Positions 57,512 through 64,000 of a stretch of 64,000 nt of DNA are shown in pieces (position 1 is the first letter of the stretch; each line of letters starts with the position of its first letter). Made by a program: the position numbers and the translations under genes. The stretch spans positions 1 to 64,000 of the forward strand of contig NZ_JAPZSK010000007.1 in the NCBI RefSeq assembly GCF_027531815.1, written 5' to 3'. The notes under the pieces were generated by a model. That model was not told where the DNA came from and made no database searches. It saw only the letters and a program-made list of their open reading frames with translations. Origin of the DNA: Gemmatimonas sp. (GTDB lineage Bacteria > Gemmatimonadota > Gemmatimonadetes > Gemmatimonadales > Gemmatimonadaceae).

Positions 57512-57515
<4 letters not shown>

Positions 57516-57982
57516 GCCGTCGCAAGAGTGCCGTGAAGCGTACCGTGCTGCCTGATGCACGCTACGACAGCCAGACCGTCTCGAAGTTCATCAACAACTT
57601 GATGATCCAGGGCAAGAAGAGCACTGCCGAAGGCATCTTCTACTCGGCCATGGACATCGTCGAGGCGAAGACCAGCCAGCCGGGGGTCGGGGTGTTCAAG
57701 CAGGCGCTGAACAACCTCAAGCCGGTGGTCGAGGTGAAGAGCCGCCGCGTCGGTGGTGCCACCTACCAGGTGCCGGTCGAAGTCCGTCAGGACCGGCGGA
57801 CTGCGCTCGCCATGCGCTGGCTCATCTCGTATTCGCGTGATCGCAACGAGAAGAGCATGCCCGAAAAGCTGGCTGCCGAAGTGCTGGCTGCCGCCCGCGG
57901 CGAAGGCAACGCGGTGAAGAAGAAGGAAGACACGCACCGTATGGCCGAAGCCAACAAGGCGTTTGCCCACTACCGCTGGTAA
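57512..57982 (+). CDS. rpsG: 30S ribosomal protein S7
   Basis: A protein of 156 aa. S7 nucleates the 30S head. [51 protein letters not shown] and RKKEDTH-like [21 protein letters not shown] are canonical. Starts with GTG inside the rpsL end. fusA and tuf, which usually follow, are absent; a terminator comes instead. Confidence 0.98.
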
Positions 57983-58027: not shown

Positions 58028-58057
58028 ACGCCCCGGATGCCAACGCATCCGGGGCGT
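58028..58057 (+). terminator. terminator of rpsL-rpsG
   Basis: Perfect 13-bp stem (58028-58040 with 58045-58057), CAAC loop, then TT. It lies 45 bp after rpsG and closes the operon before any fusA gene. Confidence 0.8.
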
Positions 58058-58254
58058 TTGCGTTGGCGGATCGACCAAAGGGCCGTGTCACACCCACGGC
58101 ACCGCCGTAACGCCCCTGACTCGCTTTCCGACGGCGTCCGTGTTTCAATCCCGGCACTCGTTACGGCGCGGGACGGATCGTTTCGGCCGCGGCCTGCGGC
58201 GTTGCGCGCACGACGTGCTCGCGTCACCTTTCTGAGAGTACGCGGCACGCCCTC

Positions 58255-58352
58255 GGGGTGCTCGCGAAAAGGCAAACCCGGCGAAAGTCGGGGACGCAAA
58301 GCTTCAGGGCTTCCATGCACTGCACGTGCATTGCCGGCTGGGCTACCGAACG
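58255..58352 (+). ncRNA. c-di-GMP-I (GEMM) riboswitch
   Basis: The aptamer core matches class I c-di-GMP riboswitches: GGCAAAC (58271-58277), P2 stem CCCGGC/GTCGGG capped by a GAAA tetraloop (58277-58292), the hallmark GGGACGCAAAGC (58291-58302), a P3 hairpin with CATGCAC...GTGCAT, and GGGCTACCGA closing toward P1. It ends about 8 nt before the GAGGAG ribosome site of the next gene, so the output is probably control of translation start. Whether c-di-GMP turns it on or off cannot be read with certainty. Confidence 0.92.
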
Positions 58353-58374
58353 ACCATGAGGAGGCGCGCAGACG

Positions 58375-59193
58375 ATGCGTAGAGCGTGGCGGCAGGTGAT
58401 GAGTCGAGGCAGGCGGCGCATGGGAGTGTCTGCCACTGGCGGTGCCCTGCTGTTGCTCGCCTCCTGTCGGCCCGCCGCCGCGTCACTGGAACTCGCGCCC
58501 GGTGCAGGGGCAGCCTCGACCGCCAACGCGATTCTCGCCACTCCGCCGCGCTCGGATGATGCCAGCCGCGTTCGCCTGCTGCGCACTGCCAACCGGCTGC
58601 CCAAAGTGGCCTTTCCGCGCCTCCGTGCCGACTGTCTGACCCAGGGGGAAGAGTTCGGAGCGTGGACCGTGCGTTTCGATGGGTACGGCTGCGTGACCGT
58701 CACCGGCAACGGCGACCAGGGGGCGCTGGCCATGGGCCCCAAGGCCGCCGCCAAGGACTGGCATACGCACGCACCGCTGGTGCTCGGCCCTACTTACGCC
58801 AGGCATCTGCTGCTGCACGCGCGCGTGGAAACCATGGCGCAGCTGCGAGACGGCGCACCCAACCCCTGGGAAGTGGCCTGGGTGATCTGGCAGTACGAAG
58901 ACGACACCCGCTTCTACTACTTCATCCCCAAGCCCAACGGGTGGGAACTTGGCAAGCGGGACCCATCGTACCCGGGGGGGCAGCGCTTCCTTGCCTCGGG
59001 CACGACCGAGCGGTTTCCCATTGGTAGGGTGCACGATGTGACCATCGTGCAGGACGACGACCGCATCGCCGTGTTCGTGGATGGACGGGAGATCGTGCGT
59101 ACCCGCGACGTCGAGAAGCCCTATCGTCGGGGGCGCATCGGCATCTATGCCGAGGATGCCGCCATCAAGGTGCACGCGGTGCGGGCCCTCTAG
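58375..59193 (+). CDS. riboswitch-controlled lipoprotein with lectin-like fold
   Basis: A protein of 272 aa. Lipoprotein signal ending GALLLLASC. The mature domain looks like a concanavalin-type jelly roll of the DUF1080 / LamG sort: ARHLLLHARVETMAQLRDG, WEVAWVIWQYEDDTRFYYFI, GRVHDVTIVQDDDRIAVFVDGRE and RRGRIGIYAEDAAIKVHAVRA at the end (parts of a continuous run). Such folds bind glycans. ATG 58375 is used because GAGGAG lies 10 nt upstream; ATG 58420 is a shorter option. Its place before an exopolysaccharide operon suggests it binds or processes that polymer. Confidence 0.75.
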   Translation: MRRAWRQVMSRGRRRMGVSATGGALLLLASCRPAAASLELAPGAGAASTANAILATPPRSDDASRVRLLRTANRLPKVAFPRLRADCLTQGEEFGAWTVRFDGYGCVTVTGNGDQGALAMGPKAAAKDWHTHAPLVLGPTYARHLLLHARVETMAQLRDGAPNPWEVAWVIWQYEDDTRFYYFIPKPNGWELGKRDPSYPGGQRFLASGTTERFPIGRVHDVTIVQDDDRIAVFVDGREIVRTRDVEKPYRRGRIGIYAEDAAIKVHAVRAL

Positions 59194-59246
59194 CGCGGGG
59201 CGTGCCGACGGCGCCGCGCCGTTTTCCGTCGAGCGGTCTCGATCAC

Positions 59247-59276
59247 ACGCCACCCGGGCCTCGCCACGGGTGGCGT
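59247..59276 (+). terminator. hairpin after the lipoprotein gene
   Basis: 10-bp stem (59247-59256 with 59267-59276) with a 10-nt loop, then TG. It suggests that the lipoprotein and the following operon are partly separate units. TAAGCT at 59355-59360 is a possible -10 element for the operon. Confidence 0.5.
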
Positions 59277-59445
59277 TGTGCATCCGGTACTCCGCTGGCA
59301 CACCGGTGACCGGGGGCCCCGTCACGGCGTCTATCGCGAGAGTCACACCACCGGTAAGCTTCACTCCGCCAGCGGTTGCTCTCGGGGTCGCCAACAGGAC
59401 GTGAGTGGTGCCCGAGGTCGGCCGACGCTTCCCTCACCCGTCACT

Positions 59446-60762
59446 GTGCTGCTCATCCTTCGTCATCCGCTGCGCCGCCTGTGGTCGCAGCCCTGGTGCG
59501 CGCTTTTCGTGCTGATGGTTGGCCTGCTGCTTCCCGCCGCCGCACGTGCTCAGGGGAACGAGCGGCATGCCAGTGCCATGAATGTGGCGTACGCGGCCAA
59601 GCAACGGGGCGACACCGCGGCGGCCCGCGAGTACTTCCGGCGCGCCATCGATGCCGACAGCGCTGCGCCATCCCCGTACATCGAGTTGGGCTATCTCGAC
59701 CTTGCCGGGGGCAACAAGGCGTCGGCGGCACGCTGGTTCGCGCTGGGGGCAGGGCGCGCACCGCAGAACGCCGACGTGCGACGGCAGTTGGGCTACGTTC
59801 TGATCGACCTGCGCCGCACCGACGAGGCCATTGCCGCCCTGGAGAGCATCGCGACGACGCCGTCGGGCTTCGTGGACCGCGATCGGCTTGCCCTGGCGTA
59901 CTTGTACGATGGCGCCGCGCGCAACCGTGATGCCATGACGGCGTTCCGGGCCGCCGCAGCCAGCCGCGACACCGGGGTGGCCAACCCCGCTCGCCGCGCG
60001 CTGCGCGTGAAGGGCAACGTGGGGACGGTACTCTTCTCCGAAGGCTACCTCGCTCCGTTCTACCAGTCGCGCTTCGAGAACACCATCGGCTTCGGCTTCA
60101 TCAGACAGGGGATCGAGAGCGGAAGCGCCTGGGCGCCGGCGGCCTACACGTCGCTGCGTGTCACCCGCGATTCGCGGTCAAGTGGCGCGCAGTCGCGCGT
60201 CCTTTCCGACAACGCCGCCATTGCGGCCGGCGGTGTGCGTGTCCGCCCGTGGCATGGACCCGTGTGGCTGTACGCGGAAGCCGGCGGCGCCTACTCGTTG
60301 CTTCCCGACGACTCGGTGTCGTGGCGGCGGGACATTCGTACCGGTGCGTATCTCATCGCCCAGGACGACCGGCGGCTCATGCCGACGGCGCGGTGGACGC
60401 TGCTCACCGATGTCGTGGCCGACGTGAGCTGGTACGAGCGGTTTGATCGCAACGTCATCGGGTACGCGCAGCTCCGGGAAGGCATTCGCGTGGGCACCCC
60501 AGGTACGCTGGCCCTTGATCTGTTCGGGCGCGGGTGGTTGGGATACGACAGCCGCGGCGACTTCTTCAACCGCGCCGCAGAAATCGGGGGCGGTGTGGCA
60601 GTACGAGTCGGCCCGAACTTTGTGTTCTTCGGTGAAGGCATCCAGGGGCGCTTCCTGCCCGCGCCGCCCCGGGGCGTCGACCAACAGTATCAGGAGTGGC
60701 GCGTCACCGCCGTGTGGGGGTGGCGTGCGCTCAGGCCCGTGCGGGCGGAGGACCGGCCATGA
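59446..60762 (+). CDS. NfrA-like TPR / beta-barrel outer-membrane protein
   Basis: A protein of 438 aa from GTG 59446; GTG 59401 is possible and the start is uncertain. Signal peptide (RHPLRRLWSQPWCALFVLM ... AAARAQ). Residues ~40-180 are TPR repeats (AREYFRRAIDADSAAPSPYIELG, ASAARWFALGAGRAPQNAD, split here). From ~185 on it is strand-rich with alternating aromatic residues, like the outer-membrane barrel of NfrA (GVRVRPWHGPVWLYAEAGG, WTLLTDVVADVSWYERF). Much shorter than E. coli NfrA. Its ATGA overlap with the glycosyltransferase makes it the likely export partner. Confidence 0.75.
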   Translation: MLLILRHPLRRLWSQPWCALFVLMVGLLLPAAARAQGNERHASAMNVAYAAKQRGDTAAAREYFRRAIDADSAAPSPYIELGYLDLAGGNKASAARWFALGAGRAPQNADVRRQLGYVLIDLRRTDEAIAALESIATTPSGFVDRDRLALAYLYDGAARNRDAMTAFRAAAASRDTGVANPARRALRVKGNVGTVLFSEGYLAPFYQSRFENTIGFGFIRQGIESGSAWAPAAYTSLRVTRDSRSSGAQSRVLSDNAAIAAGGVRVRPWHGPVWLYAEAGGAYSLLPDDSVSWRRDIRTGAYLIAQDDRRLMPTARWTLLTDVVADVSWYERFDRNVIGYAQLREGIRVGTPGTLALDLFGRGWLGYDSRGDFFNRAAEIGGGVAVRVGPNFVFFGEGIQGRFLPAPPRGVDQQYQEWRVTAVWGWRALRPVRAEDRP

Positions 60763-62303
60763 CGACACTCGAGATGGGCGTGGTCGCCATTGCCGCGCTG
60801 TACCTCATCTTTGCCATCGACGACCTGCTCTTCGACGTCACCTTTTGGCTTGGGGCGATCTTCGGCTGGTGGAAGCGCCCGGTCGTGACGCTGCGCGAGT
60901 TGCAGGAGGTGAGCGAGTGGCGCATCGCCATCGTCACGCCGGCGTGGAAGGAAGACGACGTGATTGCGCGCATGCTGCTCTACAACCTGCCGCGTCTCGA
61001 TTACCAGCGATACGACTACTGGATCGGTACCTACCAGAACGATCCGGATACGCGGCGCGAGGTGGACAAGGTGCGCGCGGTGTATCCGAACGTACGCAAG
61101 GTGACCACCGACCACGACGGCCCCACCTCCAAGGCCGACTGCGTGAACACGGTGCTGCGGGCCATCGTGGAGCACGAGCAGCGCGCCGGGCTGCGCTACG
61201 ACCTCATCGTCTTCCACGATGTCGAGGACCTCGTGCATCCCCTGGAGCTGCGGTTGCTGAACTGGTACTTCCGCGGCGACTCCGTGGACTTTGTGCAGTT
61301 GCCGGTCCTCAGTACGCCCCCGTTCTGGTACGACTTCGTGGCCGGCACGTACATCGACGAGTTCGCCGAGCAGTACACGAAGAACATGTTCGTGCGCGAG
61401 AAGATCTGGGGCTTTGTTCCCTCGGCAGGCGTGGCCACCTGCGTGCGGCGGTCGGTCATCGACCAGCTGATGGAAGAGCGGAACGGAACGCCCTTCGCGA
61501 CCAACTCGCTCACCGAGGACTACGACCTGGGGCTTGGCCTCACCGTGCAAGGGCGTCCGACGCGGTACCTGCACCAGTACGTGCAACTCGAGGAGCATGA
61601 CCGCAACAGCGAGGAGCTGGTTGCCACCTGGGCGCCGTTCCCGCAGACGTTTCGCACGGCGGTGCGTCAGCGCACCCGCTGGATGGCCGGCATCGTGTTT
61701 CAGGGATGGGAGCACTGGGGGTGGCCGAAGGGGCTGGCCTGGCTGCTCGCGCACGACCGCCGCGGTCCGCTGGGGTATCTGGTGGTGCTCGCGGGGTACC
61801 TGCTGCTGCTGTACTTCGTGCTCTACGAGTGGGTGCGGGTCTTCTACGATCGCTCGCTGCCGGCCGTGCTCGAGGAGCCCTGGTTCGTGTGGCTCTTCTG
61901 GATTGGCCTGTTCTTCATGGTCAACCGCCTGCTGCAGCGCGCCATCAGCACCGGCAAGCTCTATGGCTTCGGGCAGGCGCTGCTCGCGATCTTCCGGACG
62001 CCGTTCTCCAACCTGGTGAACATGGTGGCCACCTTCCGCGCCGCGAATCAGTACTTCGCGTCACGCCGCGCCGGCATTCCCATGAGCTGGGACAAGACCG
62101 AGCATTCGTTGCCGCCTCAGGTGGGCGCCCAGATGCGTCTGGGTGAACGGCTCATCGAGGAGAAGAAGCTCACTACGCAGCAGCTGGTGCTCGCTCTCAA
62201 GGAACAGCGTGAGAAGGGCGGTCAGCTGGGGGCCATTCTGGTCAAGCAGGGGGCCGTCTCGCGCGATGATGTGGAGACGATCGTGAGGAGTACCGGCGCA
62301 TGA
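60759..62303 (+). CDS. NfrB-like family 2 glycosyltransferase with C-terminal MshEN c-di-GMP domain
   Basis: A protein of 514 aa. One N-terminal helix (10-35), then a GT2 domain: IAIVTPAWKEDDVIARML, GPTSKADCVN, DVED (154-157), SAGVATC, LTEDYDLG (TED 252-254) and QRTRW (304-308), the acceptor and product-binding signature of processive synthases. Helices at ~337-360 and 374-392. Residues ~460-512 form an MshEN domain (RLGERLIEEKKLTTQQLVLALKEQ and LGAILVKQGAV), the c-di-GMP-binding module also found in E. coli NfrB and MshE. GGAGG precedes the ATG, which overlaps the upstream stop. It should make an exopolysaccharide when c-di-GMP is bound. Confidence 0.92.
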   Translation: MTTLEMGVVAIAALYLIFAIDDLLFDVTFWLGAIFGWWKRPVVTLRELQEVSEWRIAIVTPAWKEDDVIARMLLYNLPRLDYQRYDYWIGTYQNDPDTRREVDKVRAVYPNVRKVTTDHDGPTSKADCVNTVLRAIVEHEQRAGLRYDLIVFHDVEDLVHPLELRLLNWYFRGDSVDFVQLPVLSTPPFWYDFVAGTYIDEFAEQYTKNMFVREKIWGFVPSAGVATCVRRSVIDQLMEERNGTPFATNSLTEDYDLGLGLTVQGRPTRYLHQYVQLEEHDRNSEELVATWAPFPQTFRTAVRQRTRWMAGIVFQGWEHWGWPKGLAWLLAHDRRGPLGYLVVLAGYLLLLYFVLYEWVRVFYDRSLPAVLEEPWFVWLFWIGLFFMVNRLLQRAISTGKLYGFGQALLAIFRTPFSNLVNMVATFRAANQYFASRRAGIPMSWDKTEHSLPPQVGAQMRLGERLIEEKKLTTQQLVLALKEQREKGGQLGAILVKQGAVSRDDVETIVRSTGA

Positions 62304-63496
62304 GCCGCCCCCAATGGTTGACGCCACTACGGGGCGTGCCGGTCGTGCCGGGCACACCAAGCGTGGCCGTGGTGGTGGGCACCCGTCCGGAAGTCATCAA
62401 GATGGCGCCAGTGGTGCGTGCCTTGCGGAGCGCCGAGAGCCGCGTGGCGTGTACCGTGGTGAGTACCGGACAGCATCGCGACCTGCTGGCCCGTGCCTTT
62501 CACGATGTGGGGATGGCGCCCGACATCGAGCTGGGGTTGATGACCGACAACCAGTCGCCCAGCGGTTTCGTGGCGCGGTGCATCGCCGCGCTCGACGAGG
62601 TTCTTGCGCAGTGCGGGCCCCAGGCAGTGCTGGTGCAGGGCGATACGAGCAGCGCCTGTGCGGGCGCGATGGCGGCCACCTGGCGCGCGATCCCCGTGGG
62701 GCACGTGGAAGCCGGATTGCGTTCCTTCAACTTCCAGGAACCGTTCCCTGAGGAGTTTCATCGGCGGGTGGTGGGGGTGGCGGCCCAATGGCACTTTGCG
62801 CCAACGCCGGAAAGCCGCGACAACCTGTTGCGCGAGGGAGTGCCGGTGCATCGCATCTTCGTGACGGGCAATACGATCGTGGATGCGGTCCGGCAGATGG
62901 ACGTGTCGCGTGCGTTCGAGAACCCAGCGATCGATCGAATTCCCCCGGGGCGTCTGGCGCTGGTCACGGCCCACCGGCGCGAGAACCAGGGGGAGTCGAT
63001 GCGCGACATTGCGCGCGCGGTGAAACGGCTCGTCGCGGCGGTGGCGGACCTGCAGGTTGTGCTGCCGTTGCATCCGAATCCAAACGTGCGTGGTCTCCTC
63101 GAGCAGGAACTCGTGGGGGTGGAGCGCGTGCACCTGCTGGAGCCGCTGAGCTACCCCGACCTGCTCAAGGTGCTGTGCGCCAGCACGATCATTCTGTCCG
63201 ACAGTGGTGGCCTGCAGGAGGAAGCGCCGAGCGTGGGGCGCCCCATCCTCATCCTGCGGGACCGTACCGAGCGGCCGGAGGTGGTGCAGGTGGGGGCGGG
63301 CATTCTGGTGGGCACAGACCCCGATCTGATCGTGAAGGAGGCGCTGGCCATTCTGTGCGATCCCGTGGTGTACGAGCGCATGGTGACGGTGCCCAACCCC
63401 TTCGGCGATGGTCGGGCGTCGTGGCGGATCGCGGAGATTCTCGCCAGCTCCTTGGTGGACGAGGTGGAGTCGCCGTCGATATCGATGGTGTTGTAG
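62300..63496 (+). CDS. wecB: UDP-N-acetylglucosamine 2-epimerase (non-hydrolysing)
   Basis: A protein of 398 aa. It interconverts UDP-GlcNAc and UDP-ManNAc. Motifs: VAVVVGTRPEVIKMAPVVRAL, TGQHRDLL, VLVQGDTSSACAGAMAATW, GHVEAGLRSFNFQEPFPEEFHRR (read in parts), TGNTIVDAV, TAHRRENQGESM, LPLHPNPNVR, LSDSGGLQEEAPSVGRPILILRDRTERPE (in parts). ATGA overlap with the glycosyltransferase gene puts it in the same coupled operon, implying UDP-ManNAc as the sugar donor, as in the E. coli NfrB pathway. Confidence 0.95.
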   Translation: MSRPQWLTPLRGVPVVPGTPSVAVVVGTRPEVIKMAPVVRALRSAESRVACTVVSTGQHRDLLARAFHDVGMAPDIELGLMTDNQSPSGFVARCIAALDEVLAQCGPQAVLVQGDTSSACAGAMAATWRAIPVGHVEAGLRSFNFQEPFPEEFHRRVVGVAAQWHFAPTPESRDNLLREGVPVHRIFVTGNTIVDAVRQMDVSRAFENPAIDRIPPGRLALVTAHRRENQGESMRDIARAVKRLVAAVADLQVVLPLHPNPNVRGLLEQELVGVERVHLLEPLSYPDLLKVLCASTIILSDSGGLQEEAPSVGRPILILRDRTERPEVVQVGAGILVGTDPDLIVKEALAILCDPVVYERMVTVPNPFGDGRASWRIAEILASSLVDEVESPSISMVL

Positions 63497-63661: not shown

Positions 63662-63694
63662 GGCCGTGTCGCTCCCATAGGCGCACTGAGCCGT

Positions 63695-63710
63695 TGGCAC
63701 GGCTTGTGCT
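63695..63710 (+). promoter_or_regulatory. sigma-54 (-24/-12) promoter
   Basis: TGGCACGGCTTGTGCT matches the consensus TGGCACG-N4-TTGC(A/T) at 11 of 12 fixed positions, with the essential GG and GC correctly spaced. Transcription would start near 63722, about 34 nt before the next ATG. Confidence 0.7.
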
Positions 63711-63755: not shown

Positions 63756-64000
63756 ATGCTTTCCCCCGTCGCTCGCGCCGCCCTGACCGTAGCCCTGGTT
63801 GGAAGTTCCGCGTCCCTTGCTGGTGCGCAGACCTTTGCGGATCTGGCGTACAACAGCCCGACCAACCCGAGTTTCCCGACGCAGTGGAACTCCCACCTCT
63901 GCCAGTGGGGGGGACAGGCGATCGGGCCGAACTACGCGGGATCGACCTGGACCGGTTTTGCGGCGCTCGACCTCCGCGACTATCTCTTCTCCGGGGGGCA
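63756..64000 (+). CDS. secreted protein, 5' part only
   Basis: Open from ATG 63756 to the window end (81 codons, no stop). Begins with a signal peptide (MLSPVARAALTVALVGSSAS, cleavage near LAGAQ), then TFADLAYNSPTNPSFPTQWN and WTGFAALDLRDYLFSGG. It has no recognised domain in the visible part. The sigma-54 promoter and its position beside an exopolysaccharide operon recall the sigma-54-controlled PEP-CTERM proteins of biofilm matrices, but the C-terminus is not in this window. Confidence 0.7.
   Translation, partial: MLSPVARAALTVALVGSSASLAGAQTFADLAYNSPTNPSFPTQWNSHLCQWGGQAIGPNYAGSTWTGFAALDLRDYLFSGG

Follow-up and report, generated by a model that had tools for sequence, protein, structure and literature searches.

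An Nfr-like polysaccharide locus of Gemmatimonas preceded by a c-di-GMP-I-type riboswitch

Introduction

Can one second messenger act twice on an exopolysaccharide locus, once through the synthase and once through an RNA element? The question was raised by a stretch of 64,000 nucleotides from Gemmatimonas sp. (assembly GCF_027531815.1, contig NZ_JAPZSK010000007.1, positions 1 to 64,000), referred to here as the window, in which a riboswitch of the cyclic di-GMP (c-di-GMP) type and a lipoprotein gene are followed by three genes resembling nfrA, nfrB and wecB. An initial annotation, made from the letters alone, had described a compact polymer system apparently controlled twice by c-di-GMP. The analysis presented here found that the cassette is a real and conserved Nfr-like polysaccharide locus with a genuine c-di-GMP-I-type riboswitch, and that its genes probably serve to build a sugar polymer and carry it out of the cell. 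The reading that we put forward, at about an even chance, is that c-di-GMP would activate synthesis through the MshEN domain of the synthase and separately tune a polymer-binding lipoprotein through the RNA.

The cassette resembles the NfrB-NfrA-WecB system of Escherichia coli, the pathway for the N4 glycan receptor, in having, by the account in sections of PMC8669472 and PMC8669469, a glycosyltransferase family 2 (GT2) synthase with a C-terminal MshEN domain, an outer-membrane protein of tetratricopeptide repeat (TPR) and beta-barrel type, WecB, and a proposed UDP-N-acetylmannosamine (UDP-ManNAc) polymer. Dual control by c-di-GMP has already been proposed for E. coli, where sections of PMC8669469 place PdeL on wec transcription and c-di-GMP on NfrB; the word riboswitch does not occur in the main text of either paper. 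Among the papers searched, those on NfrB together with riboswitches or on c-di-GMP riboswitches of Gemmatimonads did not, as judged by titles only, deal with the present arrangement.

Results

Conservation of the locus

The gene order predicted by the initial annotation, riboswitch-lipoprotein-nfrA-nfrB-wecB, was kept on one strand in all nine loci examined, and in each the cassette lay directly 3' of rpsG on the same strand. These nine loci and 14 genomes bearing the lipoprotein ruled out that the cassette was an artefact of a single genome. Below, G000 denotes the genome of the window, and other G and L labels denote comparison genomes and loci.

Among 200 evenly drawn Gemmatimonadota genomes, a full-length synthase was encoded in five, and in all five a match to the riboswitch family RF03167 (over the cut-off in four) lay on the strand of the synthase, 2.3-2.5 kb upstream of it; the remaining listed matches of the synthase search lay within residues 414-511, at the MshEN end. 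A sample of 179 Gemmatimonadaceae genomes was then searched at E-values of up to 1e-10 for the lipoprotein and up to 1e-20 for the synthase, which gave 14 genomes with the lipoprotein and, as a subset of them, 11 with the synthase; the hypergeometric chance of this co-occurrence is 3e-15 if kinship is ignored. The 11 include G208, represented by contig-end fragments only, and G227, with a 41% match spanning one stop codon, while the three genomes with the lipoprotein only were 57-70% complete. An Rfam match to c-di-GMP-I or its GGC variant lay upstream of the lipoprotein gene in 13 of the 14, the exception being G227. The locus of this genome was rearranged, with the lipoprotein gene directly 3' of wecB and with nfrA and nfrB on a separate contig, and no riboswitch was found in the stretches fetched from it; as the lipoprotein gene adjoins wecB even here, it stays with the system through such a rearrangement.

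Relatives of the synthase were also collected from GTDB contigs, where the best 80 of 564 comprised six Gemmatimonadaceae loci, five labelled as such and one placed by its position in G211, and 74 others, mostly from Proteobacteria. Within these best 80, a profile of the lipoprotein matched all six Gemmatimonadaceae loci and none of the 74 others. A riboswitch-like pattern of our own, not an Rfam model, was present in five of the six, the sixth (L086) being shown by Rfam (72.5 bits), and in two of the 74, both from Aeromonas and on the other strand; in these two nfr loci (L113 and L121) the c-di-GMP-I-like pattern stood about 4 kb upstream of nfrB. Elsewhere in the phylum the lipoprotein gave two weak partial matches (E about 8e-4).

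Synthase and MshEN domain

The description of the synthase as an NfrB-like GT2 enzyme with a C-terminal MshEN domain was borne out. The protein scored 418.2 bits over residues 4-505 against the NCBIfam NfrB equivalog NF008411, short of the 1170 at which the cut-off is set. Alignment with E. coli NfrB gave 36% identity across 525 columns, and the C-terminal part of the E. coli protein, about 200 residues, was missing. The catalytic motifs HD[VP]ED, TEDYD and QRTRW were kept in all nine synthases, and the MshE-related c-di-GMP motif NF053729 was found at residues 460-508 with 48.8 bits against a cut-off of 38.

Ligand residues were scored against the Vibrio cholerae consensus of two 24-residue motifs, as given in sections of PMC5013675. 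Motif I of the window synthase was nearly complete, with Arg, Leu, Gly, most hydrophobic positions and Gln kept and Lys at the turn Gly and the next position, whereas motif II was degenerate: Leu, Gly and the turn Gly were kept, with Gln for Arg, Ala at one hydrophobic position, Val at two later Leu and Thr for Gln. On alignment, the MshEN ligand residues were thus retained in part. The clade of G144 kept the turn Gly of motif I and had Leu at the later hydrophobic pair of motif II. By its sequence, E. coli NfrB itself departs from motif I at the Arg, the turn Gly and the Gln, and sections of PMC8669469 report that its residues 414-745 bind c-di-GMP with a dissociation constant (Kd) of 1 µM; in V. 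cholerae MshEN the exchange L58A raised the KD only tenfold, according to sections of PMC5013675. Since E. coli NfrB binds despite its departures from motif I, binding of c-di-GMP by the MshEN domain of the window synthase was rated likely. The NfrB-like synthases of Bradyrhizobium, Glycocaulis and a Frankia-labelled record (L119, L130, L135, L146, L147, L151, L153, L154, L156 and L157) aligned only to query residue 452-456, and these ten therefore appear to be without an MshEN domain.

Epimerase and exporter

The three genes nfrA, nfrB and wecB are joined by ATGA overlaps at both junctions, as first described (59446-60762, 60759-62303 and 62300-63496). The last encodes a UDP-N-acetylglucosamine (UDP-GlcNAc) 2-epimerase, as had been called, scoring 402.4 bits for WecB TIGR00236 against an equivalog cut-off of 210.15. 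Its inclusion in the operon had been singled out as a special trait, which it is not: a same-strand wecB lay within 400 nt in 37 of the 74 loci from outside the Gemmatimonadaceae and a wecB anywhere in the locus in 45. A published survey with named examples places wecB beside nfrB (sections of PMC8669469), and nfrA, nfrB and wecB are clustered in Achromobacter (sections of PMC8669472). WecB, the only pointer to the nature of the polymer, suggests a ManNAc-type chain.

The expected TPR and beta-barrel architecture of the nfrA-like protein was recovered in a structure model read with DSSP, where TPR helices ran to residue 189 and were followed by a barrel. The model, built on seven sequences, had a predicted local distance difference test (pLDDT) value of 80.7, a predicted template modelling (pTM) score of 0.51 and 12 long strands, and its top Foldseek match was E. 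coli BcsC (E 5.6e-10). VIA-align of the barrel returned the autotransporters BrkA (Z 15.5) and EspP (Z 15.2) and then OmpG (Z 15.0), rows that do not fix the strand number, autotransporter barrels having 12 strands and OmpG 14. HHalign against 61 nfrA-position proteins, picked mechanically from other NfrB loci, gave a probability of 95.8 and an E-value of 6.9e-9 over 284 columns that included part of the barrel, with the shared TPRs contributing to the match; against the 11 small nfrA-position proteins alone the TPR part only was aligned (probability 86.2, 65 columns). Pfam at E up to 0.1 gave TPR families and two weak chance-level others for the window exporter, and NCBIfam gave no match to an NfrA family. 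By its modelled architecture the exporter is of the NfrA/BcsC type. It had been called far smaller than its E. coli counterpart, and with 438 aa against 990 aa it is, but the size is not special, 11 of the 61 nfrA-position open reading frames (ORFs) elsewhere being under 650 aa.

Lipoprotein and riboswitch

The lipoprotein has the lipobox LASC with Cys31, assigned by eye, and a conserved sandwich domain (model pLDDT 74.3). The best match of the model was CBM66 (Z 18.0, root-mean-square deviation 2.3, 154 aligned residues); it has its fold in common with CBM66 of Bacillus subtilis (4azz, 4b1m) and differs from it in having 12% identity and an N-terminal lipoprotein signal. Pfam gave a weak, below-cut-off match to 3-keto-disaccharide hydrolase (PF06439) in five of seven members and no other match. 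Receptor-binding domains of botulinum toxin were among the Foldseek matches, from which no toxin meaning was drawn; they have only the lectin-like beta-sandwich in common, and CBM66 holds the top three rows. Fold and context suggest that the lipoprotein may be a lectin-like, polymer-binding protein.

The riboswitch proposed to precede the lipoprotein gene was confirmed by an Rfam score above cut-off and by covarying helices. The aptamer (58262-58351) scored 62.5 bits for RF03167 (c-di-GMP-I-GGC) against a gathering score of 59, and 23 nt, including AGGAGG, separate its end from the lipoprotein ATG at 58375. In an alignment of 13 orthologous aptamers, standard pairs occupied 302 of 312 cells (96.8%), a fraction that dropped to 18-39% once the partner strand was slid by one to three columns, and 24 cells held double changes against a shuffle mean of 7.5, with none of 500 shuffles as high. 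Two other counts on the same alignment were not clearly above chance, namely the 6 pairs that held a double change, a value attained in 55 of 500 shuffles, and the 14 further pair types, attained in 464 of 500. The best Rfam model was standard c-di-GMP-I in six orthologues (up to 82.2 bits, cut-off 35) and the GGC variant in seven; 10 of the 13 exceeded the gathering cut-off of their best family, and three GGC-best orthologues scored 55.8-57.7 for RF03167, just below 59. The base assigned to position 20 of the crystallised Vc2 aptamer was G in all 13. A G20A mutant aptamer binds cyclic GMP-AMP (cGAMP), according to sections of PMC7288161; G at the assigned position in all 13 thus favours c-di-GMP over cGAMP as the ligand.

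Matches to RF03167 (E up to 0.001) occurred in 103 of the 200 Gemmatimonadota genomes and exceeded the cut-off in 45. A lipobox was found in 16 of 30 ORFs lying 3' of such riboswitches (29 phylum loci and the second riboswitch of the window's genome, with starts and ORFs picked mechanically; one of the 16, L010, is a copy of the present locus type); of the ORFs of the window, taken as a background that includes non-genes, 7 of 69 had one. A phylum-wide regulon of riboswitch-controlled surface lipoproteins in Gemmatimonadota is therefore possible. Riboswitch matches in the phylum often ended about 20 nt 5' of lipoprotein genes, and the only other match of the RF03167 search in the window's genome, at L004:5029-5117 (RF01051, 73.1 bits), again stood before a predicted lipoprotein.

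Transcription of the cassette

The lipoprotein gene and nfrA are separated by about 250-310 nt in most loci, and by 71 nt in L084 with a start chosen by us. Promoter-like pairs were sought in nine of the 14 cassette genomes (G208, G210, G250, G255 and G227 being left out). The gap contained a pair CGGTGAC-N17-CGTCTAT with a variable spacer in six of the nine loci (G000, G055, G039, G211, G202 and G074), the G202 version having two base differences in the first box and one in the second, and the same six carried GTTGC-N15-CGTCA upstream of the riboswitch. A genome-wide search for the nfrA pair with up to 2 mismatches returned 11 matches, the sole perfect one at this place; the backwards control returned 13, and thus the weaker matches are noise. 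The region was blank in a sigma-70 promoter scan, and a terminator scan called nothing between the lipoprotein gene and nfrA. That the conserved block in the gap was a second RNA element was considered and rejected, as nothing in Rfam matched at E up to 1 and two boxes with a variable spacer of constant 17-nt length are promoter-like.

With a gap of about 250 nt and a promoter-like pair inside it, the four genes need not form a single message, and the riboswitch-lipoprotein unit and nfrA-nfrB-wecB probably have separate promoters, to judge from these boxes. If so, the riboswitch would act mainly on the lipoprotein, which fits the phylum pattern of riboswitches before lipobox ORFs. Of the proposed double control, the MshEN domain of the synthase and the riboswitch itself were upheld; its extension to the whole operon was weakened by the riboswitch abutting the lipoprotein gene and by the promoter-like pair before nfrA in six of nine loci.

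Surroundings of the locus

In the window's genome, wecB is followed by fusA (contig position 64955, 1.46 kb after wecB), tuf and rplC, named by eye, in the stretch of contig that reaches about 69600; thus, the cassette splits the str ribosomal operon. A gene for a PEP-CTERM protein lay between wecB and fusA in all eight loci that reach fusA. The downstream protein scored 21.4 for the sorting signal TIGR02595 (cut-off 16), and the PEP-CTERM proteins of the cassette loci were mutually similar (E about 1e-175 to 8e-5). A sigma54-like GG-N10-GC box stood before this gene in the window; the pattern was matched in two of eight loci, and similar boxes were seen by eye in most others.

For a survey of the site, loci were drawn from 30 of 39 matching genomes, and six of the 30, all from outside the genus, were dropped as having no rpsG frame by pattern. 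The riboswitch pattern occurred within 1.5 kb 3' of rpsG in six of the 24 genus genomes with a readable rpsG, of which G215 offered only 370 nt downstream. G201, a genus member 59% complete, had its fusA motif starting 398 nt after rpsG, an arrangement without the cassette, and other genus members had unrelated ORFs 3' of rpsG. The hairpin 3' of rpsG gave a sub-threshold isrL-like Rfam match. All features are collected in Table 1.

Table 1. Features of the cassette and its flanks (positions in the window)
Feature	Position	Strand	Basis or remark
rpsG (ribosomal protein S7), upstream landmark	57512..57982	+	ORF reading; named by eye
GC-rich hairpin 3' of rpsG, terminator-like, weak T run	58030..58055	+	putative terminator
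Promoter-like pair GTTGC[GC]-N15-CGTCA, 5' of riboswitch	58201..58227	+	kept in 6/9 loci; putative promoter
c-di-GMP-I(-GGC) riboswitch aptamer	58262..58351	+	Rfam, covariation
Shine-Dalgarno-like AGGAGG, between aptamer and lipoprotein start	58359..58364	+	sequence
Lipoprotein, CBM66-like/concanavalin-type beta-sandwich at residues ~76-272	58375..59193	+	model; PF06439 weak, below cut-off
GC hairpin inside lipoprotein-nfrA gap	59248..59275	+	only in G000 and G055 among nine loci
Promoter-like pair CGGTGAC-N17-CGTCTATC, 5' of nfrA	59304..59335	+	putative promoter
nfrA-like exporter: TPR region to ~189, modelled 12-stranded beta-barrel 195-431	59446..60762	+	model, profiles
nfrB-like GT2 synthase; HDxED, TEDYD, QxxRW motifs	60759..62303	+	profiles, alignment
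MshEN-type c-di-GMP motif domain, synthase C-terminus, residues 460-512	62136..62294	+	NCBIfam, alignment
wecB, non-hydrolysing UDP-GlcNAc 2-epimerase	62300..63496	+	NCBIfam
TTGGCACGGCTTGTGCT, sigma54-like GG-N10-GC box 5' of PEP-CTERM gene	63694..63710	+	putative role
PEP-CTERM protein gene, start; runs beyond window to contig position 64556	63756..64000	+	TIGR02595

Discussion

In the mechanism that we propose, WecB would convert UDP-GlcNAc to UDP-ManNAc, which the membrane GT2 synthase would polymerise when c-di-GMP occupies its C-terminal MshEN domain, and the TPR/barrel protein would provide for passage of the polymer through the outer membrane. The lectin-like lipoprotein may act within the periplasm or on the surface, where it would bind or anchor the polymer; its synthesis would be set by the riboswitch, whose aptamer stops next to the ribosome-binding site. 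A promoter of their own would serve the synthase genes, so that the RNA switch would tune the accessory lectin and not the synthase.

Several observations weigh against this mechanism. Motif II was degenerate in all nine loci, where its Arg was replaced by Gln or Pro and its Gln by Thr or the end of the chain; in the window's clade the two later Leu of this motif were Val or Ile, and the turn Gly of motif I was Lys or Arg; and the hydrophobic position after that Gly was Lys in all nine. The E. coli fragment for which binding was measured (residues 414-745) includes the part missing from the window synthase. Three loci (G144, G254 and G253) matched neither promoter-like pattern and were thus without the nfrA pair. 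Ligand binding might either raise or lower lipoprotein synthesis: in 13 leaders folded with the aptamer forced, exposure of the ribosome site, which was picked mechanically, fell in five, rose in six and was unchanged in two (one forced pair could not form in three of the 13). E. coli YbcH had no match at E 0.01 in five loci of 18-20 kb. Sections of PMC8669472 describe a 16-stranded barrel for E. coli NfrA, and the present model, of moderate certainty, has 12 strands and would be narrower.

Part of this evidence would be accommodated if the MshEN domain no longer sensed c-di-GMP, leaving a constitutive synthase and a riboswitch that alone responds, as the motif II substitutions and the loss of the second Gln in nine loci might indicate. 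We consider this unlikely: the domain scores above its NCBIfam cut-off (48.8 against 38), E. coli NfrB is itself without three residues of motif I (the Arg, the turn Gly and the Gln) and yet its C-terminal part binds with a Kd of 1 µM (sections of PMC8669469), and L58A cost V. cholerae MshEN only a tenfold rise in KD (sections of PMC5013675). The stronger form of the initial annotation, in which a single transcript places the lipoprotein, nfrA, nfrB and wecB under the riboswitch, so that c-di-GMP governs the synthase in its expression as well as in its activity, draws on the fixed order and common strand of nine loci, on a gap without a called terminator, where the hairpin has a weak T run and is confined to G000 and G055, and on the gap of only 71 nt in L084 with its chosen start. 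Set against these are the intergenic stretch, which in most loci measures about 250-310 nt, the promoter-like pair found there in six of nine, and an aptamer that adjoins the lipoprotein's own ribosome site and so suggests translational control of that gene; a single transcript is, in our judgement, rather unlikely.

It is also quite improbable that the riboswitch-lipoprotein unit is simply one of many c-di-GMP-regulated surface lipoproteins that happens to neighbour Nfr-like genes with which it does no joint work. Such pairs are common in phylum genomes without a full-length synthase, but strong matches to this lipoprotein occurred only with the cassette (11 of 11 synthase genomes) or in the three genomes 57-70% complete, its profile matched none of 74 other NfrB loci, and its gene adjoins wecB in G227. 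That the TPR and 12-strand barrel protein is instead a Slam-like exporter which moves the lipoprotein to the cell surface, and not a polysaccharide pore, would explain a TPR protein with a small barrel beside a lipoprotein gene and agrees with a weak TPR_Slam match in one of seven homologues (E 0.0087); the ATGA overlap with the synthase gene, BcsC as the top fold match and the profile match to 61 nfrA-position proteins (probability 95.8, E 6.9e-9, 284 columns, shared TPRs contributing) make this very unlikely.

The wider arrangement admits a further reading, offered tentatively and with some doubt, in which five genes form a cassette that can be gained by or lost from the str operon and c-di-GMP ties together the parts of one matrix: a ManNAc-type polymer made under allosteric control, a tethering, lectin-like lipoprotein dosed by the riboswitch, and a sigma54-driven PEP-CTERM matrix protein, with the switch deciding whether polymer is held or released.

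Compared with the E. coli Nfr system, the synthase is shorter (514 against 745 aa), as is the exporter (438 aa and 12 modelled strands against 990 aa and the 16 strands given in sections of PMC8669472); the order is nfrA-nfrB-wecB, an extra lectin-like lipoprotein stands behind a riboswitch, a PEP-CTERM gene lies downstream, and the location is between rpsG and fusA. With the wecB-nfrB-nfrA clusters, mostly of Proteobacteria, the adjacency of the epimerase is common ground, whereas the lipoprotein profile matched none of the 74 and our riboswitch-like pattern, which is not an Rfam model, only two, on the other strand and about 4 kb away. The conserved core of RF01051/RF03167 riboswitches is likewise retained, here set before an exopolysaccharide-linked, lectin-like lipoprotein. 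The new features are thus the pairing of riboswitch and predicted lectin, the 12-strand exporter model, the PEP-CTERM gene and the location in a ribosomal operon, the epimerase and the small exporter being less special.

A synthase of the E. coli type, for which two papers of 2021 described control at the level of the enzyme, is found here in a distant phylum and is tied, in 13 of 14 lipoprotein-bearing genomes, to an RNA sensor for c-di-GMP too. If the proposed mechanism is true, the locus would be a clear case of one second messenger setting both the production and the retention of a polymer at one place. In Gemmatimonadota, where many lipoprotein genes lie behind a riboswitch of c-di-GMP type, it would then also hint at what one such switch is for.

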